The translations under genes were made by a program, and so were the position numbers. DNA of 64,000 nucleotides. Origin: Pseudovibrio axinellae. Its GTDB lineage: Bacteria; Pseudomonadota; Alphaproteobacteria; Rhizobiales; Stappiaceae. Shown piece by piece: positions 6,095 through 24,792 of the stretch; position 1 is the stretch's first letter; each line of letters begins with the position of its first letter. The stretch lies in NCBI RefSeq assembly GCF_900110875.1, contig NZ_FOFM01000006.1:186001-250000 (forward strand), read 5' to 3'. The notes under the pieces were generated by a model. That model searched no databases. It was not told where the DNA came from and worked only from the letters and a program-made list of their open reading frames with translations.

Positions 6095-7125
6095 GTGGTT
6101 TCTTTAAAGGCATTTTTTGAAAGAGAACGGAATGCCTCATCTCTGCTTCGTTTGTCCCGTGTTGCATCATTCACCATCACTGCTTTGCTCTTACTCACGT
6201 TTCTCACTCCCGGAAACTTGCTCAGTGAAGCAAGCGCCTTCTTCATTCCTCAACTACTTGCAGCGGGTTTTGCTGGGCTTCTGCTTTGGATCACATCGGA
6301 GAGGGCTTTCCACTGGGCCCAGTTACTCTGCTTTATCGGCCTGAGTATTTCCAGCTACTGGATGGTGGCAAGCATTCAGCAAGTCACGCAATCAATCCCC
6401 ATATCCGGTACTCCAACTGATGCACCACAGCTTAAGGTGATGAGCCTCAATCTGTTGCATATGCGGTTCGAAGAAAAAAGCATTCAGCAACTGATCGAAA
6501 AGAGACAACCAGATCTCATCAGTTTTCAGGAAACAGCCAGCGCTACGCCTCGTCTGAAGTCGTTCCTGGTTGAGCACTACCAATACTCTGTTCTACCTCC
6601 CGAAAATCAAACTACAGACATCACACTCTTCAGCAAATACCCACTAGCAAACGCGGGACTTATCTTTGTTCCCGACCTTAAAGAAGGACCACACATACCA
6701 AAGGAATTTCTGAGCGCTGAAGTCGACGTAAATGGTTCGCCCATTCAGCTTTATGCTGTTCACCCAGCCAGCCCGAGAGGACCAAACCGTCTGGAAGGCA
6801 GAAGTAAGTATTTCGATTTTCTCTCAAAGCATATCAAAGCGCAAAAAACACAAGTGCCAATCGTGATCCTTGGAGACTGGAACACTCCGATCTGGTCCAA
6901 AACGTTCCAGGATTTACTTTCAGATCTACAGTTAAAAACAACGCTCACCAGCTTCATTCCGCAGACAACGCGATATTTTCAGATCCATCCCTAGCGAAAA
7001 TACTCGGATCAAAAGTTGATCACATTGCATCCTCTGGAGGAATATTCATTAAAGACCTAATAATTGATGAAAATGTTGGCTCAGGCCATTTTCCAATCTT
7101 CGCAACACTTCACATAACCCCCTAA
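6095..7125 (+). pseudogene. Endonuclease/exonuclease/phosphatase family membrane protein with apparent -1 frameshift
   Basis: From GTG 6095 the frame encodes 299 residues: three N-terminal membrane helices, then the EEP fold with SLNLLHM, SFQETAS, YAVHP and ILGDWNT. It stops at 6994 without the C-terminal catalytic strand. In frame 1, from about 6979, the missing end follows at once: SKVDHI and SGHFPIFATL, then a stop at 7123-7125. Restoring one T in the TTTT run at 6976-6979 joins the two frames into one normal protein of about 342 residues. Either the gene is broken in this strain or the base call is wrong. The family contains DNases and phosphodiesterases; membrane-anchored members like this have no settled role. 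Confidence 0.75.
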
Positions 7126-7174
7126 AGTAAGGCTATAATATCTTCGTAAGAAATAATTTGGAGGAACGTCTGGC

Positions 7175-7864
7175 ATGCCAAGAAATTTACTCATATCTTT
7201 TGATGCAGACCAAACGCTTTTTGACTTCGAACGTATTCTTGAAGAAGCTTTGATCACGACTGCCAGTTTTCTGAGCCATTATTCTGAAAAGCCAATCACT
7301 CCAAGGTACCTCCAAAAAATCCGCGACTCCATAGTTGATGACATGCCCGCAAAAACGATTGGTTTGCTGGAAATTCGCCGGGCATCTTTCGAGCAAGCTC
7401 TCAACCCACTGAGCAATGCGAGGGAATTGTCAGAGCAGGCATTAGTGATTTTCAAGAAAGTTCGCTTTGGGGAGCCTTATTTCTACCCATTCGTGAAAGA
7501 AACACTGGCGACATTAAAACGCCAAAACAAGACTGCTCTCATCACAAATGGAAACTCCTGTCCAAAAAGCGCTGGTATAGCTCATCTCTTCGATTTCGTT
7601 GTGATGGCGGAAGAATACCCCTACAGCAAACCAGACCCTCGTCTCTTCAAGGTGATGCTATCGATGGCTGGATTGAGCGCAGACAACCTGATCCACGTAG
7701 GCGACTCGCTCGAAGACGACATCGCAGGTGCAAACAATGTCGGAGCAACATCAGTCTGGTTCAACCCTCTTAATTATTATAACGGTTCCCCTGTTTTGCC
7801 TGATCACTCGATTGCATGCATGAGAGAATTACCTAGTTTGGTAGCCGGATACGCCTCCCGCTGA
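7175..7864 (+). CDS. HAD-superfamily hydrolase
   Basis: 229 residues with a strong GGAGG site 12 bases upstream. All HAD motifs are visible: motif I FDADQT near residue 8 (nucleophile Asp and acid Asp), a helical cap, motif II LITNGN, motif III KPDPRLF (Lys), and motif IV VGDSLEDDIAG. The cap type and order resemble YjjG/haloacid dehalogenase-like phosphatases, so a small-molecule phosphatase, perhaps of nucleotides, is most likely. It lies next to thymidine kinase, which would fit nucleotide housecleaning, but the substrate is inference. Confidence 0.85.
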   Translation: MPRNLLISFDADQTLFDFERILEEALITTASFLSHYSEKPITPRYLQKIRDSIVDDMPAKTIGLLEIRRASFEQALNPLSNARELSEQALVIFKKVRFGEPYFYPFVKETLATLKRQNKTALITNGNSCPKSAGIAHLFDFVVMAEEYPYSKPDPRLFKVMLSMAGLSADNLIHVGDSLEDDIAGANNVGATSVWFNPLNYYNGSPVLPDHSIACMRELPSLVAGYASR

Positions 7865-7981
7865 AAGTTTGTCACTGAACCTTGTGAGTAACCTTCTACG
7901 GTTGTGGCCTCCTTCACGAATCCATGTATGAAGATCTATTCAGATTGAACGCGATGAGGCGCTTTGCGCCGCGAAGGGCCA

Positions 7982-8620
7982 ATGGCAAAACTATATTTTA
8001 ATTTCTCCGCAATGAATGCTGGTAAGTCGACAGCGCTACTGCAGGCTTCCTATAACTATGAGGAGCGCGGTATGCGCAGCCTGCTATTTACAGCTGCGCT
8101 CGACAACCGCACCAAGGTCGGAGAGATCTCGTCCCGCATTGGCCTTACATCAAACGCCCTAACCTATGACACTCAATTCAATCTGTTCGCCTGCATCGAG
8201 CAACAAGTGGCTGAGCATAAAATCAACGCCGTCTTCATTGATGAAGCACAGTTTCTTACTGAAGATCAGGTGTGGCAGCTCGCCCGTGTGGCTGACCATT
8301 TGCAAGTTCCAGTTATGGCATATGGCCTTAGAACAGACTTTCAAGGCAAGATGTTCCCTGGCAGTGCTGCGCTGCTTGCTATTTCCGACATCCTCCGCGA
8401 AATCAGAACCATATGCTGGTGCGGTTCAAAAGCGACAATGGTCGCTCGGCTGGACCAAAATGGTGATATCGTTGAAGAAGGCGATCAGGTTGTTATTGGT
8501 GGCGAAGAAGCCTACATCTCACTTTGCAGAAAACACTGGTCGATGCGCAGATTGTGCGAGCCAACCTCAGAAAACAATGATGCACAGAGCAAGATCCTGT
8601 GCGAACCTGTAGACGACTGA
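7982..8620 (+). CDS. tdk: Thymidine kinase
   Basis: 212 residues from ATG 7982, preceded by GAAGGG with good spacing; an upstream in-frame TTG (7964) is less likely. Type II Tdk features are present: P-loop SAMNAGKST near the N terminus, Walker-B-like AVFIDEAQF, a lasso region with YISLCRKHW, and zinc-ligand cysteines in the TICWCG segment. It phosphorylates thymidine to dTMP with ATP for salvage. It is encoded between a HAD hydrolase and a HlyU-like gene. Confidence 0.95.
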   Translation: MAKLYFNFSAMNAGKSTALLQASYNYEERGMRSLLFTAALDNRTKVGEISSRIGLTSNALTYDTQFNLFACIEQQVAEHKINAVFIDEAQFLTEDQVWQLARVADHLQVPVMAYGLRTDFQGKMFPGSAALLAISDILREIRTICWCGSKATMVARLDQNGDIVEEGDQVVIGGEEAYISLCRKHWSMRRLCEPTSENNDAQSKILCEPVDD

Positions 8621-8647
8621 AACTCCATCTCGTCTGGGAGAACAAAC

Positions 8648-8929
8648 ATGGGCCTCTTCTCACGCCTGTTTGGCGGCAACAAGGATGATACCCCTGCCCC
8701 TGCTGCCCAAGCAGAGGAATACCTAGGTTATCTGATTTATTCCGAGCCAACCCCACGTGGCGGGCTTTGGCAAACAGCAGGCCGCATCACAAAGCAGTTT
8801 GATGATGAGACCAAAGAACATGCGTTCATCCGGGCAGATACACATGCGACTGAGGGCGAGGCGATCGAGTTTTCTTCTGTAAAAGCAAAACAGATCATCA
8901 ACGAATTAGGTGACGGTCTGTTTACCTAA
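8648..8929 (+). CDS. HlyU family protein
   Basis: 93 residues, starting 28 bases after tdk with GGGAG upstream. It opens with MGLFSRLFGG, followed by a short acidic/proline linker, and the core GGLWQTAGRITK, KEHAFIRADTH and KAKQIINELGDGLF is the HlyU-family pattern. The founding member is a regulator in Vibrio; the short alphaproteobacterial proteins have no established function, and I see no recognisable DNA-binding helix-turn-helix here. Family call is good, role unknown. Confidence 0.8.
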   Translation: MGLFSRLFGGNKDDTPAPAAQAEEYLGYLIYSEPTPRGGLWQTAGRITKQFDDETKEHAFIRADTHATEGEAIEFSSVKAKQIINELGDGLFT

Positions 8930-9046
8930 TACAAGTTGTTCCCCCAAAGTCCTGCACAAATACGCGTGCCACAATTGACAGCACCCGCTTGGATGTGCAC
9001 ACCCTGCGTATCCGTACTCGTTAGCCGCGTAAACTTGAAGGTCCAT

Positions 9047-9619
9047 ATGTCCCGTAAGCTTATATTTTCGCTTCCAAATATTCTTACTTATGGCCGCATC
9101 GCCGCTGTTCCGGCGTTGGCAGCATGTTTCTATTTCCCAGGAAACACCGCACGCTGGATTGCGCTAGGTATTTTCCTTGCTGCGGCCATCACTGATTTCT
9201 TTGACGGCTACCTTGCAAGAGCTTGGCAGCAACAATCAGCACTAGGCAGAATACTTGACCCGATTGCAGATAAACTTCTTGTCTCAGTATGCCTGTTGCT
9301 CCTGGCATGGGATGGTACCATCGGCGAATGGTCGGTGATTGCAGCAATCATTATCCTATGCAGAGAAATACTGGTTTCAGGACTAAGAGAGTTTCTTGCT
9401 GAGCTCAACGTTTCTGTACCCGTCACACAGTTGGCGAAATGGAAAACCACTGTGCAGCTGGTCTCATTAGGGTTCCTATTGGCGGGTCAAGCTGGCGACA
9501 GTATTTTCCCATACACGACATTAACTGGGACGGTGCTACTTTGGGTCGCAGCGATTTTGACCCTCTATACGGGCTATGACTACTTTCGCGCTGGAATTGG
9601 TCATCTGATTGAAGACTAA
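9047..9619 (+). CDS. pgsA: CDP-diacylglycerol--glycerol-3-phosphate 3-phosphatidyltransferase
   Basis: 190 residues from ATG 9047, which has GAAGG six bases upstream; the open frame extends 111 bases further 5' but that part has no family likeness. The CDP-alcohol phosphotransferase signature is complete: ITDFFDGYLAR, then GRILDPIADK (Dx2DGx2ARx8Gx3Dx3D). About five membrane helices follow the typical pattern, starting with LPNILTYGRI. The enzyme makes phosphatidylglycerol phosphate in the inner membrane. Upstream of moaD/moaE, as in many Rhizobiales. Confidence 0.95.
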   Translation: MSRKLIFSLPNILTYGRIAAVPALAACFYFPGNTARWIALGIFLAAAITDFFDGYLARAWQQQSALGRILDPIADKLLVSVCLLLLAWDGTIGEWSVIAAIIILCREILVSGLREFLAELNVSVPVTQLAKWKTTVQLVSLGFLLAGQAGDSIFPYTTLTGTVLLWVAAILTLYTGYDYFRAGIGHLIED

Positions 9620-9677
9620 TTCCTGTGAAAGGCGAGGTTTCCTGTGAGGGAACCCAATAATACCGGGGCTGTATCCG

Positions 9678-9929
9678 ATGAAAATTCGTTATTTTGCATG
9701 GCTGCGTGAGCGCACAGGCACTTCCGAGGAAACCATTGCTCTTCCGGAAACTGTAAAGACCACAGGCGAACTCATGAGCTGGCTTGCCGCTCGCGATGAA
9801 GGCTATGCGTTTGCGTTCGAACAACCGGACACCATTCGCATCGCTGTCGATCAAGAACACGTTGAAGCTGACTATGTTTTGTCTGGAACTGAAGAAGTCG
9901 CATTCTTCCCTCCAATGACTGGCGGATAA
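9678..9929 (+). CDS. moaD: Molybdopterin synthase sulfur carrier subunit
   Basis: 83 residues ending in FFPPMTGG; the C-terminal Gly-Gly is thiocarboxylated to deliver sulfur. The MKIRYFAWLRERTG opening and beta-grasp size fit MoaD. It works with MoaE, encoded 43 bases downstream, to convert cyclic pyranopterin monophosphate to molybdopterin in molybdenum cofactor synthesis. Confidence 0.95.
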   Translation: MKIRYFAWLRERTGTSEETIALPETVKTTGELMSWLAARDEGYAFAFEQPDTIRIAVDQEHVEADYVLSGTEEVAFFPPMTGG

Positions 9930-9972
9930 AAGCCAACGTTAGTTCCAGTAGGAAGCAAAGCTTACAAAGATC

Positions 9973-10461
9973 ATGACAACTAGCAGCCCAATCGACTTCA
10001 AAGTTCGCGTTCAAGCCGAAGATTTCGAAGTTTCTGCCGAAACCGATATCCTCACCAAAGATCGCAAGGATATCGGAGCCATCGTTACTTTTACGGGTTT
10101 GTGCCGTGATGAGGGTGGCATGCTAGAGGCACTCGAACTGGAGCACTACCCGGGAATGGCCGAAGCGCAAATTTCAAAGTTTGCACAACAGGCAGTCGAG
10201 CGTTGGCCTCTAAGTGGTCTGACAATCATACATAGATACGGCAAAATTCCTCCTGGTGAGAACATTGTATTGGTAAGCGCCACCAGCGCACACCGGCGCG
10301 CTGCGTTTGAAGCTGCTGACTTCCTGATGGACTTCTTGAAAACACAAGCTCCCTTCTGGAAAAAAGAACATTTAAAAGACGTTTCAAATGGAACATGGGT
10401 CGAAGCCAAAGCGCTTGACGATGCTGATGCAGCACGCTGGACATTGCCAAAAAGCAAGTAA
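9973..10461 (+). CDS. moaE: Molybdopterin synthase catalytic subunit
   Basis: 162 residues, slightly long for MoaE because of the N terminus. Recognisable blocks are IGAIVTFTGLCR, LEHYPGMAE, IIHRYGKIPPGE, VSATSAHR and the active-site lysine segment PFWKKEH. It forms the heterotetrameric molybdopterin synthase with MoaD, encoded just upstream, and together they transfer two sulfurs to the pterin side chain. Confidence 0.95.
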   Translation: MTTSSPIDFKVRVQAEDFEVSAETDILTKDRKDIGAIVTFTGLCRDEGGMLEALELEHYPGMAEAQISKFAQQAVERWPLSGLTIIHRYGKIPPGENIVLVSATSAHRRAAFEAADFLMDFLKTQAPFWKKEHLKDVSNGTWVEAKALDDADAARWTLPKSK

Positions 10462-10614
10462 CACCCTGTATATCAAGAATATGCAAAGCACATTGGCGAG
10501 CTGACCCTTGCCTTGACATAGCCATGTTTGTCAGTTCAAATGGCGCATAGTTTAAGTTAATTTGGCCGCAACAGCGGCCTCTTACCTTGTTTTACCCCAA
10601 CAAACAGGTCTCTG

Positions 10615-11871
10615 ATGTCTGCAGTATCTAATCTGCGGCATGAGCCAGCACCTCATCCTGGGCTTTCCTTATTGGAAATTGTCAGCCTCGTTGCTGCGCT
10701 TATGGCGCTGAACGCGGTTGCGACATCTATGATGCTTCCAGCTCTTCCTGCAATGAGCCAAGCTTTGTCTGTCGCTGACAATGATCGCCAATTGGTGATC
10801 ACAGCCTATATGATTGGTCTCGCTTGTGCTTCTCTCTTTTTCGGCCCGCTCTCAGATACGATCGGCCGCCGCACCACTTTGTTGATTGGCCTCAGCCTTT
10901 ACATCATTGGCGGCATCTACTCCACGTTTGCCCTGAGCTACGAGCACATGCTGGCGGCGAGAGTCCTGCAAGGTATAGGCGCGGCCGCACCACGCGTTGC
11001 ATCCATCTCAATGATCCGTGATTGGTACAGCGGGCGTCAAATGGGCAAGGTAATGTCCTTGGTTATGGTCGCTTTTCAGGTGGCACCTGTTATAGCGCCC
11101 TTCCTCGGCCAGATCGTCTTGTGGGTTGCACCATGGCAAGGTGTCTTTGCTGCCCTCACTTTTTTTGGCGTCCTGCTCCTGGCTTGGTGCTATATGCGGC
11201 TTCCCGAAAGCCTTGCCCCTGTAAACCAACGGCCTTTGGAAATTCGCTCCATCTTGAGTGCCTATAAGCTCGCGCTCACCACACGTGTGACAGTTGGCTA
11301 CATGATGGCAATGACATTTATCTTTGCCTGTCTGTTTTCCTTTATCAACTCCGCGCAGCAAGTCTTCATGGAACGGTTCGAGCTCTCTGATCTGTTTCCG
11401 ATCGTATTTGCAGCAATCTCTATCGCGATGGCTCTCTCCTCCTATCTCAACTCGCAGATGGTTGAGAGATACGGCTTGAGAAAAATGTCGCATATGGCCC
11501 TTCTTGGCTTCACCGCGACAACATTGCTGACAGCTGCAGTTGCCACGGGCGGAACGCTTACCATTGTTCCATTCATTGCGCTCCAGTCTCTGGCTATGTT
11601 CTTTTTCGGATTTATTGGGCCAAACTTTAACACTATGGCCATGGAACCGTTGGGTCGTGTTGCAGGTGCTGGCTCTGCCGTGATCGGATTTGTTACAACA
11701 TTGATTGGCGCCCTTCTGGGAGCCGGTATCGGCAAGCTCTACAACGGAACCGAGCTGCCGCTTGTCTATGGCATTGCCCTGTTCTCAGTCCTTGGACTGA
11801 TCTGCGTGCTGATAACCGAAAGCGGTAAACTTTTCAGACCGCATCATGAGCCTGAGCAGCTTCCCTCATAA
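10615..11871 (+). CDS. MFS drug efflux transporter, Bcr/CflA type
   Basis: 418 residues with about 12 membrane segments. The MFS motif between helices 2 and 3 is clear (GPLSDTIGRRTT), and the helix-4 region ARVLQGIGAAAPRV resembles Bcr/CflA and DHA1 multidrug transporters. The N terminus has a short cytoplasmic tail. It should be a proton-driven exporter in the inner membrane. The substrate is not deducible. It appears monocistronic, with a strong terminator immediately downstream. Confidence 0.85.
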   Translation: MSAVSNLRHEPAPHPGLSLLEIVSLVAALMALNAVATSMMLPALPAMSQALSVADNDRQLVITAYMIGLACASLFFGPLSDTIGRRTTLLIGLSLYIIGGIYSTFALSYEHMLAARVLQGIGAAAPRVASISMIRDWYSGRQMGKVMSLVMVAFQVAPVIAPFLGQIVLWVAPWQGVFAALTFFGVLLLAWCYMRLPESLAPVNQRPLEIRSILSAYKLALTTRVTVGYMMAMTFIFACLFSFINSAQQVFMERFELSDLFPIVFAAISIAMALSSYLNSQMVERYGLRKMSHMALLGFTATTLLTAAVATGGTLTIVPFIALQSLAMFFFGFIGPNFNTMAMEPLGRVAGAGSAVIGFVTTLIGALLGAGIGKLYNGTELPLVYGIALFSVLGLICVLITESGKLFRPHHEPEQLPS

Positions 11872-11879
11872 TAACAACA

Positions 11880-11916
11880 ATGCCCGCTACTGAGGATAAG
11901 TAGCGGGCATTTAAAT
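11880..11916. terminator. Bidirectional terminator between MFS gene and ilvE
   Basis: Perfect 11-bp stem ATGCCCGCTAC / GTAGCGGGCAT with a 9-nt loop, followed by TTTAAATTC on the plus strand. It sits between two convergent genes and probably serves at least the MFS gene. Confidence 0.8.
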
Positions 11917-11984
11917 TCTATTTCATGCCAAGTGCGCTGGCCTTCAGCATCTTTAAAGAACCAATTGGTCCGCTAAAAGCTTAA

Positions 11985-12884
11985 TTAGCTCGCAACAAGC
12001 AACTCTTGTTTAACTGGCTGCACAGCTGTCATATAATCTTCGATCATGAGCTTGCTGATTTCGCCAGGAGTGAACCTGTAAGGCCCAATTTCGGAAACCG
12101 GTGTTACTTCAGCAGCGGAACCGGTCAGGAAGCACTCTTCAAAGCTCTCCATTTCCTCTGGCAAAATGCGACGTTCAATCACGTCGATGCCGCGAGCACG
12201 AGCCAGAGCAATAACAGTGCGACGTGTCAGGCCATCAAGGAAACAGTCCGCGATTGGTGTATGGAGTGCGCCGTCTTTAACAAAAAACACGTTTGCACCA
12301 GTCGCCTCAGCAACCCGGCCCTGCCAATCAAGCATAAGTGCATCAGAATAGCCCTTCGCTTCAGCAGCGTGTTTAGAGATAGTGCAGATCATGTACAGGC
12401 CAGCAGCCTTAGATTTAAAAGGTGCAGTTGCTGGGTCTGGACGTCGGTATTCAGCCAAATCCAGACGAATACCTTTTAAGCGTTCTTCTGGAGAGAAGTA
12501 GCTCGGCCACTCCCATGCTGCAATCGCTAGGTGAATTGTATTGCTCTGAGCGGAAATGCCCATCATTTCGCTACCACGCCACGCAACGGGGCGCAGATAG
12601 GCATCCGTCAACTTGTTCTCAACCAACATCTGCTTACAGGCATCGTTGATCTGCTCTTCGCTCCAGGGAATAGTGAAGTTCAAAACTTCTGCAGAAGCAT
12701 GCAAACGCTTTGTGTGTTCTTCCAGTTTGAAGATTTCACCGCCATAGGCACGCTGTCCCTCGAACACGCTGCTACCATAGTGCAAACCGTGGGTCAGCAC
12801 ATGCACTTTGGCCTCTGACCAAGGAATGATTTTTCCGTCCAACCAGATTGAGCCTTCCAGTTGATCAAAGGGTATACCCGCCAT
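11985..12884 (-). CDS. ilvE: Branched-chain amino acid aminotransferase
   Basis: 299 residues from the ATG at 12884 (GGAG with good spacing); the open frame runs 60 bases further upstream without family likeness. Class IV aminotransferase features: WSEAKVHVLTHGLHYGSSVFEG at the start, the PLP-lysine segment SKAAGLYMI, EATGANVFFV, and the C-terminal FLTGSAAEVTPV cofactor-binding loop. It interconverts Val, Leu and Ile with their 2-oxo acids using glutamate/2-oxoglutarate. It is divergent from the petP-like regulator gene. Confidence 0.93.
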   Translation of the reverse strand: MAGIPFDQLEGSIWLDGKIIPWSEAKVHVLTHGLHYGSSVFEGQRAYGGEIFKLEEHTKRLHASAEVLNFTIPWSEEQINDACKQMLVENKLTDAYLRPVAWRGSEMMGISAQSNTIHLAIAAWEWPSYFSPEERLKGIRLDLAEYRRPDPATAPFKSKAAGLYMICTISKHAAEAKGYSDALMLDWQGRVAEATGANVFFVKDGALHTPIADCFLDGLTRRTVIALARARGIDVIERRILPEEMESFEECFLTGSAAEVTPVSEIGPYRFTPGEISKLMIEDYMTAVQPVKQELLVAS

Positions 12885-13199
12885 TTCTCTTCTCCATATG
12901 GCGAACAATTCACGGTGCAGGCAAAGCAAGGCCTTGCCAGTCAAGGTGTGTTCTAGCTAAATCAATGAGTTTTAAAAGGACAAGAGATACGAACAACCGC
13001 ATTGCAACTGTAGGTCGTAACCATTATCCACGATGTACACGAGTGAAGAAAGAGTTTTCAACTATTTCGCGAATACGTCACGTTTAGTTCTTTCCTTTCT
13101 CCAACGATGGCCAATTAGTAACTTTCATTCTCAAATAAGTCAACATGACTGACGTATTTTTTGTTAGATTAAAAAATAGGCAGTTATCTGGAACAGGAA
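12885..13199. other. Divergent promoter region ilvE / MarR-type regulator
   Basis: 315 bases with no gene. The half nearest the MarR-type gene is AT-rich, and an AGTCA-ACA-TGACT inverted repeat occupies 13138-13150, about 50 bases before that start codon. This could be an autoregulatory operator, but the arms are short. Confidence 0.5.
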
Positions 13200-13676
13200 A
13201 TGAGCAAAAAAGACAGCGTTTCACCACGGTTTGACCTTATTGAACTGTTTTTCTTCGCGTATCGCGACTTTACGGGCGATCCGGATGTACTTCTTGACGA
13301 GTTAGGTTTTGGCCGCGCCCATCACCGCGTTCTTCATTTTGTGCATCGAAACCCGGGAATCAGAGTTTCCGATCTGCTCGAGATTTTAAAAATTACGAAG
13401 CAAAGTTTGGGACGCGTTTTAAAACAGTTGGTAGACGAGGATTTCATTTGTCAGGAGCCCGGTGCTTTGGACCGCCGACAACGTCTTCTTTATACCACTG
13501 AAAAAGGGACAGATTTTTGTACTCGACTGTCCAAGCTTCAGTCCCAGCGTATTAATAAGGCTATCGAACTCATGCCCGATGGCAGCGACGAGATTGTCCG
13601 ACAGTTTTTATACCTTATGATTGATGAGAACGAGCGCAGCGAAGTTGCCCGCCTCATTAGCAAACAAACAGATTGA
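13200..13676 (+). CDS. petP: MarR-family transcriptional regulator, PetP-like
   Basis: 158 residues. A MarR winged helix is visible: FGRAHHRVLHFVHRNPGIRVSDLLEILKITKQSLGRVLKQLVD is the helix-turn-helix with recognition helix (residues about 40-80), and DRRQRLLYTTEKG is the wing. It is followed 9 bases later by an OmpR-type response regulator, the petP-petR arrangement known from Rhodobacter capsulatus, where the pair is needed for cytochrome bc1 gene expression. In this window petABC lie at 34-37 kb, so the functional link is plausible but inferred from gene order. Confidence 0.8.
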   Translation: MSKKDSVSPRFDLIELFFFAYRDFTGDPDVLLDELGFGRAHHRVLHFVHRNPGIRVSDLLEILKITKQSLGRVLKQLVDEDFICQEPGALDRRQRLLYTTEKGTDFCTRLSKLQSQRINKAIELMPDGSDEIVRQFLYLMIDENERSEVARLISKQTD

Positions 13677-13685
13677 GGAATTACC

Positions 13686-14387
13686 GTGGCCCGCTCTGCT
13701 GTTCTGGAAGATAATGCACCTCACATTCTTCTGATTGATGATGATAGCCGTATCCGTGACCTTCTCCAAAGGTTCCTCGGAGAACATGGTCTGCGCGTTA
13801 CTGTTGCAAAAGATGCGCAAGAAGCCCGTCGCAGAATGTCGGGCCTTGAGTTTGATCTCCTTATTCTGGATGTGATGATGCCGGGAGAAAGCGGGATCGA
13901 GCTTGCTAAAGATCTTCGCCGCTCGAAATCCGTACCTATTCTCATGCTCACGGCTCGCTCTGATATTGAAGACCGGATTGAAGGTCTGGAGGCTGGGGTT
14001 GATGATTATGTATCCAAACCATTTGAACCCCGAGAATTATTACTGAGGATTTCTGCGATCCTGCGCCGTGGTGGACCCAAGCAAAAAATGAAACTTGAAG
14101 TTCTGTCATTTGGCCCGTTTCAATACAATGCCGAACGCGGTGAACTCAAACGCAACGACGAATATGTTCGCCTGACCGATCGCGAAAAACAGATTCTCAA
14201 CACCTTCGCTGAAAGGCCAGGCAAAACAGTTGCAAGAACCGACCTAGTGGGCACCGACGCGGCGCTTGGAGAGCGGACCATCGACGTCCAGGTGAACCGT
14301 TTGCGCCGAAAGATTGAGGAAGATCCTGGCAATCCAATGTACTTGCAAACTGTGCGTGGATTAGGGTATCGGCTTATAACCGATTAA
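13686..14387 (+). CDS. petR: OmpR-family response regulator, PetR-like
   Basis: 233 residues from a GTG with GAGGA upstream. Receiver domain: acidic cluster DDD at 18-20, phospho-acceptor Asp62 (LILDVMMPG), Thr89 and Lys111 (VSKPFEP). The C-terminal winged helix (about 130-230) has YVRLTDREKQIL and TIDVQVNRLRRKIE with the GLGYRL end. It lies between a MarR-type gene and a histidine kinase, all co-directional with short gaps, so one regulatory operon. By homology to R. capsulatus PetR it may activate the bc1 operon. Confidence 0.88.
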   Translation: MARSAVLEDNAPHILLIDDDSRIRDLLQRFLGEHGLRVTVAKDAQEARRRMSGLEFDLLILDVMMPGESGIELAKDLRRSKSVPILMLTARSDIEDRIEGLEAGVDDYVSKPFEPRELLLRISAILRRGGPKQKMKLEVLSFGPFQYNAERGELKRNDEYVRLTDREKQILNTFAERPGKTVARTDLVGTDAALGERTIDVQVNRLRRKIEEDPGNPMYLQTVRGLGYRLITD

Positions 14388-14432
14388 TTGAAAATACGAT
14401 TTGGCAGTACATAGACCGCCTGCGAGAGAACA

Positions 14433-15815
14433 ATGGGCTTATCAGACCGTTTCAAACTCCCCAAATGGGTCAGAACGATTTTAGCGCCCTATTATGCGTT
14501 CACCAGCTGGCTACATTACCGCCTTCCCAAAGGGCTGTATGTCCGCTCGCTGCTCATCATCGTCATCCCGTTTCTGATTCTACAGTCCGTGCTCGCTTTT
14601 GTGTTTATGGAACGTCACTATGATCTGGTCACACGGCGTTTGTCAGAAGCGGTTGTAAGAGAGATTGCAGCGGTCGTCGACATGGCGCAGAACTATGCGC
14701 ACGATGACAACTATGCAACGCTCAAAAACATCAGTGCAAGTGCTTTAGGCCTCTCCGTATCTGTTCTGCCTAAAGAACCTTTGCCGGCACCAAAGCCAAA
14801 GCCGCTGTTTGATCTGGTTGATCGATACATGACTCGCGAAATTGCAGCTCGTATCGGCAGACCGTTCTGGATTGATACGGCCGGTGCCTCCAAATACGTC
14901 GAAATTCGCATCCAGCTGGAAGACAAAACGCTGCGCATTATCGCACGCAGAAGCCAGACCTATGCCTCCAACTCCCATATTTTCATTGTCTGGATGGTTG
15001 CCACCTCGCTCGTTTTGATCATCATTTCCGTGCTCTTCCTCAGAAACCAGATCAGGCCTATCGAAAAACTTGCCGATGCAGCAGAAGAATTCGGCAAGGG
15101 AAGGCAGGTCTCCCATTTCCGTCCCCACGGTGCCCGCGAGGTCCGCCGTGCTGCACTCTCATTTATCGACATGCGCCGAAGAATTGAGCGCCATGTTGAC
15201 CAGCGAACAACCATGCTTGCCGGTGTCAGCCACGACCTGAGAACCATCCTGACGCGCTTCCGCTTGGAACTTGCGCTGCTCGATCAATCACCTGAGTCAG
15301 ATGCGCTCCGCAGGGACGTCGACGAAATGAATCGGATGCTCGAGGACTATCTCTCCTTTTCCAAAGGATACGGAGATGAGCCCCCGGCTCCGGTTGATAT
15401 TGCGCTCATGCTTGAAGATCTGGAGGTGGAGGCAGAGGTTGTTGGCGCGGATGTGGCATCGTCCTTTGACGGCGACCCACTTGTTATTCTCAAGGGCCGA
15501 GCATTTAGGCGCTGCCTGCTCAATGTCATTTCCAATGCAGCTCGATATGGCCGCACGTTGCGCATCAAGGGCAATCGAACACCAGATTGGCTGATCATCA
15601 CCGTTGATGACGATGGCCCCGGCATCCCACGCGAGGAGCGTGAGAATGTCTTCCGTCCGTTCCACCGGCTTGATACAGCGCGAAATCAGGACAGTGGCGG
15701 CTCTGGCCTCGGTCTGTCCATCGCACGCGATATTGTAAGAAGCCATGGAGGAGAAGTCTTCCTGCGCCAATCCCCCTTGGGTGGCTTGCGGGTGCGTATT
15801 CGCGTTCCGATTTAA
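14433..15815 (+). CDS. Sensor histidine kinase, EnvZ-like
   Basis: 460 residues. Two membrane helices (about residues 38-58 and 182-204) bracket a periplasmic sensor region of about 120 residues; a HAMP linker follows. Phospho-acceptor His267 sits in AGVSHDLRTILTRF, where the usual Pro of HDLRTPL is Ile. The ATPase domain has N box NVISNAARYG, G1 DDDGPGI and G2 GGSGLGLSIA. It begins 45 bases after the response regulator and is its obvious partner. The signal is unknown. Confidence 0.9.
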   Translation: MGLSDRFKLPKWVRTILAPYYAFTSWLHYRLPKGLYVRSLLIIVIPFLILQSVLAFVFMERHYDLVTRRLSEAVVREIAAVVDMAQNYAHDDNYATLKNISASALGLSVSVLPKEPLPAPKPKPLFDLVDRYMTREIAARIGRPFWIDTAGASKYVEIRIQLEDKTLRIIARRSQTYASNSHIFIVWMVATSLVLIIISVLFLRNQIRPIEKLADAAEEFGKGRQVSHFRPHGAREVRRAALSFIDMRRRIERHVDQRTTMLAGVSHDLRTILTRFRLELALLDQSPESDALRRDVDEMNRMLEDYLSFSKGYGDEPPAPVDIALMLEDLEVEAEVVGADVASSFDGDPLVILKGRAFRRCLLNVISNAARYGRTLRIKGNRTPDWLIITVDDDGPGIPREERENVFRPFHRLDTARNQDSGGSGLGLSIARDIVRSHGGEVFLRQSPLGGLRVRIRVPI

Positions 15816-16322
15816 AGCAGAACTGCTAAAACAGCAGCGCACACACGTGCAAATATCACCGCGCAGTCTTCTGTGCAGTGTTCCAGAAAAGCCCCAGGAT
15901 ACGGGGGTGGGCAAGGCATACAGGCAATGCCTGCGCTACTTGTTAAATTAGTTTCTTCGGCATCAGCTGTTCACCTTGCCCGGGCGTTTTTGTATGAAAC
16001 AAGGTCATCCCCGACAGGCATTGTGAGCATATAAGCGTCAAAGACACTCATCTGCCAGTGCCGACACCCATCAGGTTGACCAGCTTCCGCTTGGCCTCTG
16101 CACTGTTGGCTTTCAAGGGGTGTTTCAACGAACCCGCCGAAAGATGCGTTAGGTCTTCCGGTAGCCCCGCCCAGCCCACGCTGCACTGACGGACGCTCCG
16201 CCAGCTGCCCGTATACGTGAGCACAAGATGTAGTGTAGACGCGATTTCAGCCAGGAGGATAAGTCTCAGCAAGAAACGCAGCTGCCCTGCTGTCTACTCA
16301 ATGCGCAAAGCGAGGCAAACGC
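15816..16322. other. Intergenic stretch without a supported gene
   Basis: About 500 bases between the kinase and csaA. Several short open frames exist on the minus strand (for example 16048-16272 and 15971-16186), but none has a convincing start, ribosome site or family likeness. A GGCAT/ATGCC hairpin at about 15917-15933 could end the kinase transcript. I looked for SRP, 6S or tmRNA hallmarks and did not find them. Confidence 0.5.
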
Positions 16323-20944: not shown

Positions 20945-21712
20945 ATGATTAAAGTGCCAGAGCTTGAAGCAATGCAGCGCATTTCGCACGGCTTCTTCAC
21001 GCGCGAGGGCGGTGTCTCCGAAGGCATCTACAAAGGTTTGAATGTTGGTCTGGGCTCTGATGACAACCGCGAGCATGTGCTTGAAAACCGTCGGCGTGTC
21101 GCCAACAAACTTGGCACAACTCCGGAAAAGCTGGTTACACCCTATCAAGTCCACTCGGCAAAGGTGCTCAGTGTATCTGCCCCATTCACAGAACAGGACG
21201 ACAAACGGGCCGACGCCCTTGTCACCAAGACACCTGATCTGGCCATTGGCATTCTTACGGCAGACTGTGGCCCCGTCCTTTTTGCAGATCCAACAACCGG
21301 GGTGATTGGGGCCGCGCATTCCGGGTGGAAAGGTGCGGTCGACGGTATCTTACCAAACACAATAGAAGCCATGCAAAAGCTTGGAGCAAACCCAGCCCAC
21401 ATCACCGCCGTCATGGGGCCGATGATTTCGCAAGAAGCTTATGAAGTTGGACCAGAGTTTATGGCTCACTTCCTTGATCGCTCCGCAGCAAATGAGTGCT
21501 TTTTCATTCCCTCTGCCAAAGCAGACCATGCCATGTTTGACCTGCCAGCTTTCATCAAGGCACAATTGGATGGCTTTGGCCTCAAGCAAGTCATCGACGT
21601 TAACCGCTGTACGTACTGCGATGCGGACAGCTTCTTTTCCTACCGCAGAACAACACATAATAAAGAATCGGATTACGGACGCCAAATATCAACTATCATG
21701 TTGACCGCCTGA
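20945..21712 (+). CDS. pgeF: Peptidoglycan editing factor / purine nucleoside phosphorylase-type (laccase-domain) protein
   Basis: 255 residues from ATG 20945 with GGGAGA upstream. It matches the YfiH/DUF152 fold: ISHGFFTREGGVSEGIYKGLN, the zinc ligands His in YQVHSAKV, Cys in LTADCGPVL and His in AAHSGWKG, and the DVNRCTYCDADSFFSYRR end. Family members have been reported as purine nucleoside phosphorylases/adenosine deaminases and, in E. coli, as an editor of misincorporated muropeptides. The last 20 codons and following bases are repeated at 23497-23576. Confidence 0.92.
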   Translation: MIKVPELEAMQRISHGFFTREGGVSEGIYKGLNVGLGSDDNREHVLENRRRVANKLGTTPEKLVTPYQVHSAKVLSVSAPFTEQDDKRADALVTKTPDLAIGILTADCGPVLFADPTTGVIGAAHSGWKGAVDGILPNTIEAMQKLGANPAHITAVMGPMISQEAYEVGPEFMAHFLDRSAANECFFIPSAKADHAMFDLPAFIKAQLDGFGLKQVIDVNRCTYCDADSFFSYRRTTHNKESDYGRQISTIMLTA

Positions 21713-21728
21713 TTGTGCTTGTAAACGA
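21649..21728 (+). repeat. 80-bp direct repeat, copy 1 (3' end of intact pgeF)
   Basis: Matches 23497-23576 at 76 of 80 positions by eye. It covers the last 21 codons of pgeF and 16 bases beyond. The two differences inside the coding part (T/C and G/A) are both third-position and synonymous. The pair encloses tRNA-His and a PrpF-family gene. Confidence 0.9.
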
Positions 21729-21761
21729 AAAAAATAAACCTATGTTCCGCGAACTTGGCGA

Positions 21762-21838
21762 GCAGACGTAGCTCAGTTGGTTAGAGCGTCGGATTGTGGC
21801 TCCGAAGGTCGGTGGTTCAAATCCACTCGTCTGTACCA
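21762..21838 (+). tRNA. tRNA-His (anticodon GTG)
   Basis: A complete 77-nt cloverleaf with encoded CCA: acceptor GCAGACG pairs with CGTCTGT, D stem GCTC/GAGC, anticodon stem TCGGA/TCCGA around loop TTGTGGC, and T stem GGTGG/CCACT with loop TTCAAAT. The anticodon is GTG. The base before G1 is A, the discriminator is A73 and the first pair is G-U, so the near-universal G-1:C73 of tRNA-His is absent, as known for most alphaproteobacteria. It lies between two 80-bp repeats of the pgeF end. Confidence 0.95.
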
Positions 21839-21995
21839 TTTCGCTAAGTGATTTCTACATGCCTCTTACGGCAAAAGCCGTGAAATGCATTGGGTAGAAA
21901 CTTAAAGTCTATAATTCTCCAAATTTATAGGTAGTTTTCTTCGAAAGTACATAATTGGCTTTTCGGTAATAACCTATTCTATCATATCTCAGTCA

Positions 21996-23096
21996 TTATC
22001 CATTCCATACCTTCGAGGGTATGCAAAGCGTACCTCGTGCCAAAAGGCGGGCAGTTCTGATGAGGCTTGCCGAAACGAGCTGAAACTTTCCTCCATCATA
22101 TTTGCAATGCACTGCCACGTCTATGTGTCCGCAAGGGTGCTCGATTTGAATAGCTATGGGTTGATTGTCACTATGGTTTACAGGGGGAGTGTAAAAATCC
22201 ACTGCAATAGTTCCCTCATAAAGCATAGAGGTTGCAATGCACTGGGCGCCTGTTAACGCCATGGAAGGGTGAGGGGCCCATGGAGTAAAATAACGTGCTG
22301 TGATGTCGCCTCCCTCCCGTGCCATGGCAAGGGCTGCAAATTTGGGGATGACCTGACGGCTGGTGTCGCCCAACCCCATTAGCTGGCCAGCCTTAATGTG
22401 TATACTTGCAAGTCTTGCCATTAACTCTTTGTTGGCGGCAAGTTCATCTACGCTTTCATATCCGCTGATATTGATATCGCTGGCGCGAACGAGAACCAGT
22501 GGCATAGCTACATCAACGCAGCTTACTTCCAATCCGTCGATTATTGTTCTTGGTTGGCCTGTCGGTAAAATTTTTCCGGTGCTTGATCCCGCGACTTCCC
22601 GAAACTCCATAACAATACTTGCAGCTGTTCCTGGAACCCCGTCAATATGGGTCGCTCCCTCGTATTCAACGCATTTATCAGGAGTTTTGACCTTTGCGGT
22701 GATATGGGCCCCTGTGTTTACGGCCCTAATCTTGACGTGGGTTATGTAGTTTTGTGCCTCTACCAATCCCATTTCGATTGCGGCGGGGCCAACGCCTGCG
22801 AGTATATTGCCGCAGGTGGGCCCGAAATCTACAATCCTTTTGTGGCCATCAATTTGCGCAAATAAATAGTCAACATCGGTTGAAGGGTCAGTGGAAGGGG
22901 AGAGTATTGCAACTTTTGTTGTTACCTCTGCTCCGCCCCCGATGCCATCAATGTTTAGCGGGTGACCTGCTCCCATTACGCTAAGGAGAGCGCTTTCCAA
23001 CAAGGTCTCGTCTTCTGGCAGGTCCTTGCGCTGGAAATACGCTCCGCGCGAAGTGCCGCCCCGCATAAATAGAAACGGTATTTCAAATTGGGGCAT
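21996..23096 (-). CDS. PrpF-family isomerase (4-oxalomesaconate tautomerase-like)
   Basis: 366 residues from ATG 23096, with AGGAGG upstream; 16 further in-frame codons exist. It opens with the PrpF signature IPFLFMRGGTSRGAYF, then GIGGGAEVTTKVAIL, DFGPTCGNILAGVGPAAIE, GAHITAKV and HPSMALTGAQCIATSM. The fold is that of diaminopimelate epimerase, and characterised members are cis-trans or tautomer isomerases of tricarboxylates: PrpF in the methylcitrate cycle and GalD in gallate breakdown. No partner pathway genes are nearby, so the substrate is open. It is the only protein gene inside the repeat-bounded segment. Confidence 0.88.
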   Translation of the reverse strand: MPQFEIPFLFMRGGTSRGAYFQRKDLPEDETLLESALLSVMGAGHPLNIDGIGGGAEVTTKVAILSPSTDPSTDVDYLFAQIDGHKRIVDFGPTCGNILAGVGPAAIEMGLVEAQNYITHVKIRAVNTGAHITAKVKTPDKCVEYEGATHIDGVPGTAASIVMEFREVAGSSTGKILPTGQPRTIIDGLEVSCVDVAMPLVLVRASDINISGYESVDELAANKELMARLASIHIKAGQLMGLGDTSRQVIPKFAALAMAREGGDITARYFTPWAPHPSMALTGAQCIATSMLYEGTIAVDFYTPPVNHSDNQPIAIQIEHPCGHIDVAVHCKYDGGKFQLVSASLIRTARLLARGTLCIPSKVWNG

Positions 23097-23631
23097 GCAG
23101 AGGCCTCCTTCAGCCTTCAAGGTACTCCAAAGTAGTTGCGGCAAGATTATCCTTTAAAAAAGTTGACTATTTTTGACTTTGAAAGAAACTTGATGTTCTC
23201 AGGAAATCGAAGCCGGACCACCGCTTTGAAAAATGAATGCCGTTTCGGGTAAGCTTGCTCGAAAATATATAGAAAAACCCCGTTCCCGGTTAGAGGGGCG
23301 CAATATGAGCAAAAAGCCTCCTGACAGTACTTTGACTTCTCCTTTATCGAAACTTTTATTAGCGGAAATACAGCGGATTGCCTCCATGTCTCTGTCAGCG
23401 CCATAGTGCTTGTTCCAACATTATGTGGAGGCAGAGCGTTGCAGTTTTTTTTCAAAAAGGCAGGCAGCTAGAGGCCAAACGTAGCAACCTTCTGGAAACA
23501 ACACACAATAAAGAATCAGATTACGGACGCCAAATATCAACTATCATGTTGACCGCCTGATTGTGCTTACAAACGAGCAATAGTAAGTTCGGTTTCAGAT
23601 CGCGACGCAAACTATGAAATGGGAGAAGAAC
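23097..23631. other. Intergenic region containing displaced pgeF 3' fragment
   Basis: About 530 bases between the PrpF gene and the M24-type gene. It holds the promoter side of the PrpF gene, the second copy of the pgeF repeat (23497-23576), and about 55 bases leading into the next gene. The open frame reading into the repeat from 23378 is a by-product and not a gene. Confidence 0.6.
23497..23576 (+). repeat. 80-bp direct repeat, copy 2 (orphan pgeF 3' end)
   Basis: Second copy of the pgeF 3' end, encoding the same final TTHNKESDYGRQISTIMLTA and stop, with no upstream pgeF sequence. It lies only 55 bases before the start of the M24-type gene, which suggests that this copy marks the original pgeF downstream junction. 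The sequences outside the repeat show no similarity to copy 1 flanks. Confidence 0.9.
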
Positions 23632-24792
23632 ATGGCCCTGCACTTTTCATCGGAAGAATTTGCGGAGCGCCGTGCTGCTCTGGATGCCAAGCTCAAAGAG
23701 CGCAATCTGGATTGCCTGCTCATCTTTGCACAGGAAAGCATGTACTGGCTGACTGGCTTTGACACCTTTGGCTACTGCTTTTTCCAATGCCTGATCTACC
23801 GCCCCTATGAAGAGCCAATCCTCCTCACGCGATCTGCTGATTTGAGACAGGCCCGTAATACCTCCAATCTAAAAGATATTCGCCTCTGGATGGATGTGGC
23901 CGGAAAATCTCCCGTCGGCCAGGTCAAAGAGCTCCTGTTCGATCTGGACCTGCTCGGCACGCACATTGGTGTAGAATACGACACCCATGGCCTCACAGCA
24001 GCCAATGGGCGCTTGCTGGACGAGTCCCTTCACTCCTTTGCCAACGTCAATGATGCCTCTGACATCGTAAAGTCCCTGCGTCTGGTGAAGTCCCCAGCTG
24101 AGCTGGAATATGTAAGGATCGCAGGCAAGCTCGCCGATGATGCCTTTGAGGCAGCGATAGCCGAGATCAACCCGGGCGCGGACGAAGGCCGCATTCTTGC
24201 GAAGATGCAAAGCGCTATCTTTGAAGGGGGTGGCGATTATCCAGCCAATGAATTTGTAATTGGCTCTGGGCCAGATGCTCTTTTATGTCGCTATAAATCA
24301 GGTCGAAGAGTTCTTTCTTCACAAGATCAGATCACGCTGGAATGGGCCGGCGTCTACCGCCATTATCATGCAGCTTCCATTAGAACCGTGATTCTTGGTG
24401 AGCCGACACCGCGTCATTTGGAGCTTCACCGCGCGGCCAAAGATGCGCTGCTTGCTGTCGAGAAAGTCATGCAGGTCGGCAACACTTTTGGTGACCTTTT
24501 TGCAGCTCATGCCAATGTTCTGGATGATCGCGGCCTGATGCCACATCGCCTGAATGCCTGCGGATATTCGCTAGGGGCCCGTTTCACCCCAAGCTGGATG
24601 GAACCGCCTTACATGGCCTTCAAAGAAAATGCACATGAAATTCAGGAGAACATGGTGCTGTTTATGCATATGATCATTATGGATTCTGACAGCGAAACCG
24701 CGATGACTTTAGGCCAAACCTACATCACGCACGAAGAGGGGCCAGAAGCGTTATCGCAGCTTTCTCTCGACCTGCCTGTGAAGGCAGGGTAA
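23632..24792 (+). CDS. M24 (creatinase/Xaa-Pro peptidase fold) family protein lacking the metal-site motifs
   Basis: 386 residues from ATG 23632 (GGGAGAAG upstream). An N-terminal creatinase-like domain (about 1-145) is followed by the pita-bread domain. The usual metal ligands of M24 peptidases are not in place: the DxG...HxD strand pair reads LEWAGVYRHYHAAS, the GHGIG-type His segment reads CGYSLGARF, and the EPG motif reads MHMIIMDSD. That is the creatinase or DoeA-like (ectoine hydrolase-like) condition rather than a metallopeptidase. It probably hydrolyses a C-N bond in a small molecule; the substrate is unknown. Confidence 0.8.
   Translation: MALHFSSEEFAERRAALDAKLKERNLDCLLIFAQESMYWLTGFDTFGYCFFQCLIYRPYEEPILLTRSADLRQARNTSNLKDIRLWMDVAGKSPVGQVKELLFDLDLLGTHIGVEYDTHGLTAANGRLLDESLHSFANVNDASDIVKSLRLVKSPAELEYVRIAGKLADDAFEAAIAEINPGADEGRILAKMQSAIFEGGGDYPANEFVIGSGPDALLCRYKSGRRVLSSQDQITLEWAGVYRHYHAASIRTVILGEPTPRHLELHRAAKDALLAVEKVMQVGNTFGDLFAAHANVLDDRGLMPHRLNACGYSLGARFTPSWMEPPYMAFKENAHEIQENMVLFMHMIIMDSDSETAMTLGQTYITHEEGPEALSQLSLDLPVKAG

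Follow-up and report, generated by a model that had tools for sequence, protein, structure and literature searches.

The window analysed here, a stretch of 64,000 nucleotides from Pseudovibrio axinellae (contig NZ_FOFM01000006.1, positions 186,001 to 250,000), carries a 1.8-kb segment between pgeF, the gene of the peptidoglycan editing factor, and the gene of an M24-family peptidase. The segment contains a tRNA-His gene and a PrpF-family gene and is enclosed by two copies of the pgeF 3' end. Comparison with related genomes supports an insertion of outside origin, and the segment was probably acquired when a foreign fragment was captured illegitimately through microhomology, a short stretch of the target being duplicated (probability roughly 0.7). 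The event looks like an accident of DNA uptake in which no mobile cassette took part. In a preliminary description of the same DNA it had been proposed that the segment entered as a small integrative cassette and brought its own pgeF end. The entry itself was borne out by the empty site in 42 of 49 relatives and by a collinear locus in a congener, while the own pgeF end was not.

Direct repeats were surveyed over the whole window with a seed of 14 and a minimum length of 30. The pair given in the preliminary description was recovered at 21649..21728 (copy 1) and 23497..23576 (copy 2), both on the forward strand, with 76 of 80 identical positions (95%) and a spacing of 1848. Chance was rejected as an explanation, the only two other direct repeats listed for the window being 42 nt at 74% and 37 nt at 70% identity. 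Copy 1 comprises the pgeF 3' end (the last ~60 coding bases) plus trailer and belongs to an intact gene (20945..21712, forward strand), which scored 196.4 bits with TIGR00726 (cut-off 141.15) and 261 bits with PF02578. In copy 2, the pgeF 3' end stands as an orphan and continues into the native trailer and the M24 leader. A misjoined or contaminated contig was judged unlikely in view of the four differences between the copies and of the position of the segment, far from the ends of a 344-kb contig. A pgeF gene was present in 61 of 61 genomes, including the one studied here (G000). In one family member (G036; L218, G036:C3:893300-895200) pgeF is divided between two matches in different frames, which represents a frameshift or an assembly error.

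The M24-family peptidase gene (23632..24792, forward strand; PF00557/PF01321) comes directly after pgeF in relatives. Its reading frame starts at 23614 on the list of open reading frames (ORFs), and relatives align from the ATG at 23632; the gap behind copy 2 is 37 or 55 bases by the start chosen, and the 55 bases reported earlier hold from the ATG. The alignment of pgeF-M24 junctions proposed in the preliminary description was carried out with 49 of 60 relatives, comprising all 15 relatives of the same genus; 11 relatives were left out. In 42 of the 49, the M24 gene starts 11-75 bp past the last aligned pgeF codon, and the site is empty in 15/15 same-genus relatives (22-75 bp). The remaining seven, all from other families of the order, were uninformative, with no M24 gene in the stretch fetched. 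No cargo was present at the site in the 42 informative relatives, including the different cargo that had been envisaged for some strains. Because M24 directly follows pgeF in these 42 relatives and in the whole same-genus sample, the segment is read as an insertion. Downstream of copy 2 the sequence matches the junction of close relatives; the native right flank is thus attached to copy 2 and the native left flank to copy 1.

The 80-bp repeat is most plausibly the pgeF end of the recipient itself, which would have been kept twice. Two features of the alignment support this reading. At positions 7 and 20 of the 80 bp, both copies share bases that were present in 0/9 close relatives, and the two copies agree at 76/80 positions, whereas neither agrees with any of these nine at more than 71/80. 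The same shared bases argue against a pgeF end brought along by the segment. Two of the four mismatches lie in the coding part and were both confirmed as synonymous (2 of ~13.3 synonymous sites, 0 of 46.7 others). These two sites are variable among relatives too, so the direction of change cannot be told. The -35 hexamer of the promoter ahead of the tRNA gene, at 21718-21723, contains the other two mismatches (21721 and 21722), and the length that was cleanly duplicated may therefore be closer to 72 bp; the difference between TAC in copy 2 and TGT in copy 1 may be partly donor-derived.

As judged from the letters, it is possible that the second repeat copy came from another strain of the same species. 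In a two-step course of this kind, a hybrid molecule of donor DNA and pgeF end from another strain would have entered by a single homologous crossover within the 80 bp. Both coding mismatches at sites that also vary among relatives would be in line with it, as would the account in part of PMC3240628 that small conjugated non-replicating plasmids in E. coli gave mostly single-crossover duplications and not the expected deletions. However, an earlier illegitimate joining would be needed anyway, plus a circle or dimer, and two synonymous changes do not settle the matter (a chance of ~5% if both arose in the unconstrained orphan copy). The two-step course is considered unlikely. The earlier suggestion that the synonymous differences mark two copies evolving as working pgeF ends was likewise abandoned, two changes being too few.

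A donor-type locus was found in a deep-branching congener (G010). Behind the sole strong tRNA-His match of that genome lie first a PrpF gene in the opposite orientation and then a small ORF of 131 amino acids, and positions 21718 to ~23501 of the window are collinear with this locus (L099 6228 to 4223). DNA identity was 97% in the tRNA block, 80% in the PrpF gene and 71% at the right end, and the PrpF proteins share 85% of their amino acids. The leader (33/33) and the tail (11/11) of the captured tRNA-His are identical to those in G010, whereas the other 14 same-genus relatives and the native copy of this genome on contig C59 reach at most 27/33 and 6/11 (C59: 26/33 and 4/11). The G010 sequence runs on past both segment ends. 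Two of 87 family genomes contain the 131-aa ORF: it is complete in G010, and the window has a remnant of residues 4-60 (23336..23506, forward strand; 51% identical, one TAG inside), which is ended by the right junction and is contained in the ~350 bp ahead of copy 2. Just behind this ORF in G010, a run of an 8-base repeat (ctctgtag) was observed at ~3940-3995 of L099. The collinear locus and the matching tRNA flanks, together with the empty site in relatives, point to a foreign origin of the segment. The G010 tRNA-His locus, in which some bases are masked as N, gave no match to pgeF where it is readable; the G010 pgeF lies ~3 Mb away and is strongly different. When 52 kb of G010 (partly N) were searched for a repeat of the 3' end of tRNA-His, the next best match was 21 bp at 86% (E 0.23).

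PrpF genes of such closeness were restricted to 2 of the 87 family genomes, G000 and G010, and the next best match had an E-value of 9.3e-131 at 56% identity. Among 397 genomes drawn from the order, evidently without G010, which would have reached the threshold, a PrpF match past E 1e-140 was obtained in G000 only. Between the PrpF genes of the window and G010, 61% of the synonymous sites and 8% of the others differ (omega ~0.07), and a recent transfer from G010 itself was rejected on the basis of the synonymous value. For pgeF and M24 together, nine relatives of the same clade diverge from G000 at 60-72% of synonymous and 7-11% of other sites, and G010 at 72% and 22%. The likeliest donor would be a relative of G010, about as distant from it as the species of one clade are from each other. 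Since 2 of ~13 synonymous sites differ between the repeat copies, the duplication should be much younger than the splits among the clade species and from G010.

A purely vertical history was weighed against these data. It would require that the tRNA-His-PrpF arrangement was ancestral in the genus, that the genome's own locus was copied to the pgeF site, and that PrpF was then lost natively. The synonymous divergence of PrpF from G010 (pS 0.61), slightly under that of four housekeeping genes (0.64-0.76), would be in line with it. But no PrpF this close was found in the other 14 same-genus genomes, and the native tRNA-His on C59 has different flanks. The duplication is young (4/80 differences), and PrpF would have had to persist here and to vanish separately in every sampled sister lineage, which makes this history highly improbable.

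The junctions were compared base by base. The left junction (21718..21728, forward strand), at which the recipient trailer meets donor DNA in CTT...AACGA, was placed by comparing the window with copy 2 and G010. The sequences there are CTTACAAACGAGCAA in the recipient, CTTGCCAACGAAAAA in the donor type and CTTGTAAACGAAAAA in the window, and the exact donor-recipient match is AACGA (5 bp). At the right junction (23496..23501, forward strand), the donor type reads TTGGGAACAATTG, the recipient CGCAGAACAACAC and the window CTGGAAACAACAC; donor type and recipient agree exactly over GAACAA (6 bp), the first base of which is A in the window. Random junctions between the two sequences (400,000 draws, masked G010 bases left out) gave matches of at least 5 bp in 0.51% and of at least 6 bp in 0.16%. 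Short exact matches of 5 and 6 bp were thus found at both joins, as measured against a diverged donor proxy, and long donor-recipient homology was found at neither end with G010 in this role. Since the left border of the segment falls within the donor-type tRNA promoter and the right one within the 131-aa ORF, neither resembles the end of a discrete element.

These borders bear on the reading of the segment as a small integrative element or integrase-less relic, site-specific for the pgeF 3' end and restoring that end with its own copy. Integrative elements and islands insert at the 3' ends of genes or tRNA genes and leave their cargo between two copies of the end; the present locus has this geometry, with cargo between two copies of a gene 3' end. 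A further point in favour is a region resembling an integrative and conjugative element (ICE) ~11-20 kb from the G010 tRNA-His gene, with a serine recombinase, a coupling protein and a TrwC relaxase. However, this region is separated from the tRNA-His side by 23S and 5S rRNA genes. The repeats enclose the tRNA gene, the PrpF-family gene, a 102-aa ORF and the ORF remnant, and no recombinase was found among the segment ORFs by family match, in agreement with the absence of an integrase stated in the preliminary description. In contrast to an island, both borders cut into donor-type genes. The pgeF end was not found in the readable donor-type locus, so a ready-made attachment site is lacking, and there is no attachment-site logic. 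Neither recurrent ends nor other cargo were seen; among the 87 family genomes the close PrpF gene recurs in G010 only, and cargo at the site was found in 0/42 informative relatives. An integrative element is quite unlikely on these grounds, and the small integrative cassette of the preliminary description was not supported.

The ICE-like region of G010 (L206, G010:C1:3660001-3680000; 6110-16264) was annotated with Pfam and comprises a TrwC relaxase, a TrwB/TraG-type coupling protein and a large serine recombinase. A helix-turn-helix ORF resembling part of a transposase was also noted there, and a tRNA gene accompanies the 23S and 5S genes between this region and the tRNA-His side.

An insertion sequence or transposon was not supported either, with no transposase found by family match and no inverted repeat pairing the segment ends. 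A duplication of 80 bp exceeds typical transposon target duplications. A search for a plasmid carrier gave 67 matching plasmid records, none covering 80% of the query, and the best among the matches listed covered 17%. Of 126 matching phage records, the 20 matches listed covered 3%, corresponding to the tRNA. No pattern match to viral contigs was obtained.

Under illegitimate capture, a fragment from a relative with a G010-type tRNA-His locus would have been inserted between pgeF and M24, with joins at AACGA (within CTT...AACGA) on the left and at GAACAA on the right. The right-hand join would re-enter the recipient chromosome ~72-80 bp behind the left-hand exit, and the pgeF 3' end would for this reason be kept twice. 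Two routes are conceivable. A template switch during repair replication could have returned slightly upstream, or the two fragment ends could have been joined to two sister chromosomes. The genome would thereby have gained a second tRNA-His gene, whose -35 box spans the junction, and a PrpF gene at a new position.

Several points weigh against this interpretation. G010 serves as a proxy, the true donor being unsampled, so the lengths of the junction matches refer to a diverged stand-in. The G010 locus is partly masked as N, and ~160 bp of the window and ~440 bp of G010 between the tRNA and PrpF genes could not be aligned. The match lengths do not separate template switching from end joining. 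Furthermore, PrpF synonymous divergence is near saturation, so it is no proof of transfer when taken alone, and the argument for foreign origin rests on the tRNA flanks and the distribution of PrpF.

The strand-exchange steps and a delivery by transformation or by a gene transfer agent are what we infer for the event. Ku was found in 0/16 genus genomes, in a search whose control matched in 1/14 genomes (B. subtilis), and Ku-type end joining is disfavoured. ComEC was present in 16/16 genus genomes, as was a gene-transfer-agent cluster protein (1-3 GTA_TIM matches per genome), so that delivery by either route is possible. The two GTA_TIM matches of this genome are located at C16:639-1538 and C53:480920-481807. 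Gene transfer agents are also reported in part of a Pseudovibrio genome announcement (PMC12424307).

The captured tRNA-His gene (GTG) was located by ARAGORN at 21762..21838 and by the Rfam tRNA model at 21762-21835 (72.4 bits), which confirmed its position between the repeats. It is the second tRNA-His gene of the genome. A genome-wide count, also proposed in the preliminary description, gave two genes, one in the window and one on contig C59, where the stretch is 92% identical to the window copy. Among the candidates scored, which in most genomes were the 12 best, two strong matches were listed for this genome and one per genome for the 15 same-genus relatives.

In 16/16 genomes of the genus, this one included, the native tRNA-His gene is preceded by CTTGCC, a 17-bp spacer and a -10 box CTATGT or a one-base variant, and this conservation suggests a promoter role. 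A putative hybrid promoter lies ahead of the captured gene (21718..21745, forward strand), composed of a -35 box CTTGTA at the junction, a 16-bp spacer and the donor -10 box CTATGT. The -35 box straddles the junction, and the captured tRNA-His may still be expressed from this altered promoter. A rather doubtful, yet conceivable, extension is a natural and fixed case of homology-independent uptake of a foreign tRNA gene in which the -35 box was provided by the illegitimate junction. Donor and recipient would then both contribute to the promoter that drives the foreign tRNA-His, and the TAC/TGT changes would have been selected for restoring the native CTTG. If this held generally, fragments delivered by gene transfer agents or transformation could seed spare tRNA genes without an integrase. 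The questions arising are whether the hybrid promoter works and whether the captured copy is able to replace the native tRNA-His.

Illegitimate capture of foreign DNA is an event of known kind, of which the locus would be a further instance; a narrow literature search yielded no description of this locus among the entries listed. Homology-facilitated illegitimate recombination (HFIR) is described, in the part of PMC3240628 consulted, for S. pneumoniae, A. baylyi and P. stutzeri. One end is joined by long homology there, the other by 3-10 bp of microhomology in most cases, and deletion is the usual result. HFIR brings linear DNA from outside, 1 kb on average, into the chromosome and leaves microhomology at the illegitimate join (PMC3240628), which resembles the present case. 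In contrast, neither end shows long homology here with G010 as proxy, which differs from HFIR in the strict sense, and the target is duplicated, not deleted. Microhomology-mediated break-induced replication with template switching, as outlined in part of PMC2621351, shares the short matches at both joins, the inserted segment and the duplication by upstream re-entry. It differs in that the present event is reconstructed from sequence alone, with foreign DNA as the template. In transformation-made merodiploids of pneumococcus, donor DNA bridges chromosome arms by interchromatid integration, and duplications of ~100-900 kb result, with one small 3.3-kb case of unclear origin, according to the sections of PMC3784515 used. 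The bridging of two arms by donor DNA and the duplication of recipient DNA are common to both situations; but in pneumococcus repeats and homology are used and ~100-900 kb are duplicated (PMC3784515), compared with 80 bp here.

Insertions that lack an integrase but lie between gene-end repeats can easily be given the annotation of a decayed island. A donor-type locus combined with base-level junctions can separate illegitimate capture from site-specific integration. The locus would also be a natural example of a foreign tRNA gene gained along with an unrelated gene.

The PrpF-family gene (21996..23096, reverse strand) probably encodes a 4-oxalomesaconate tautomerase, and the earlier family assignment was thereby refined; the NCBIfam equivalog cut-off of NF033377 for this enzyme was narrowly passed (443 versus 440 bits). 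LigA, searched for as a test of the protocatechuate 4,5-cleavage/gallate pathway, matched in 0/16 genomes, and the control likewise matched nowhere. The other ORF between the repeats, of 102 amino acids, is without family match. At the right junction, the remnant of the donor-type ORF is fused in frame to the last 20 pgeF codons, giving a predicted ORF of 60 amino acids (23378-23560, forward strand).

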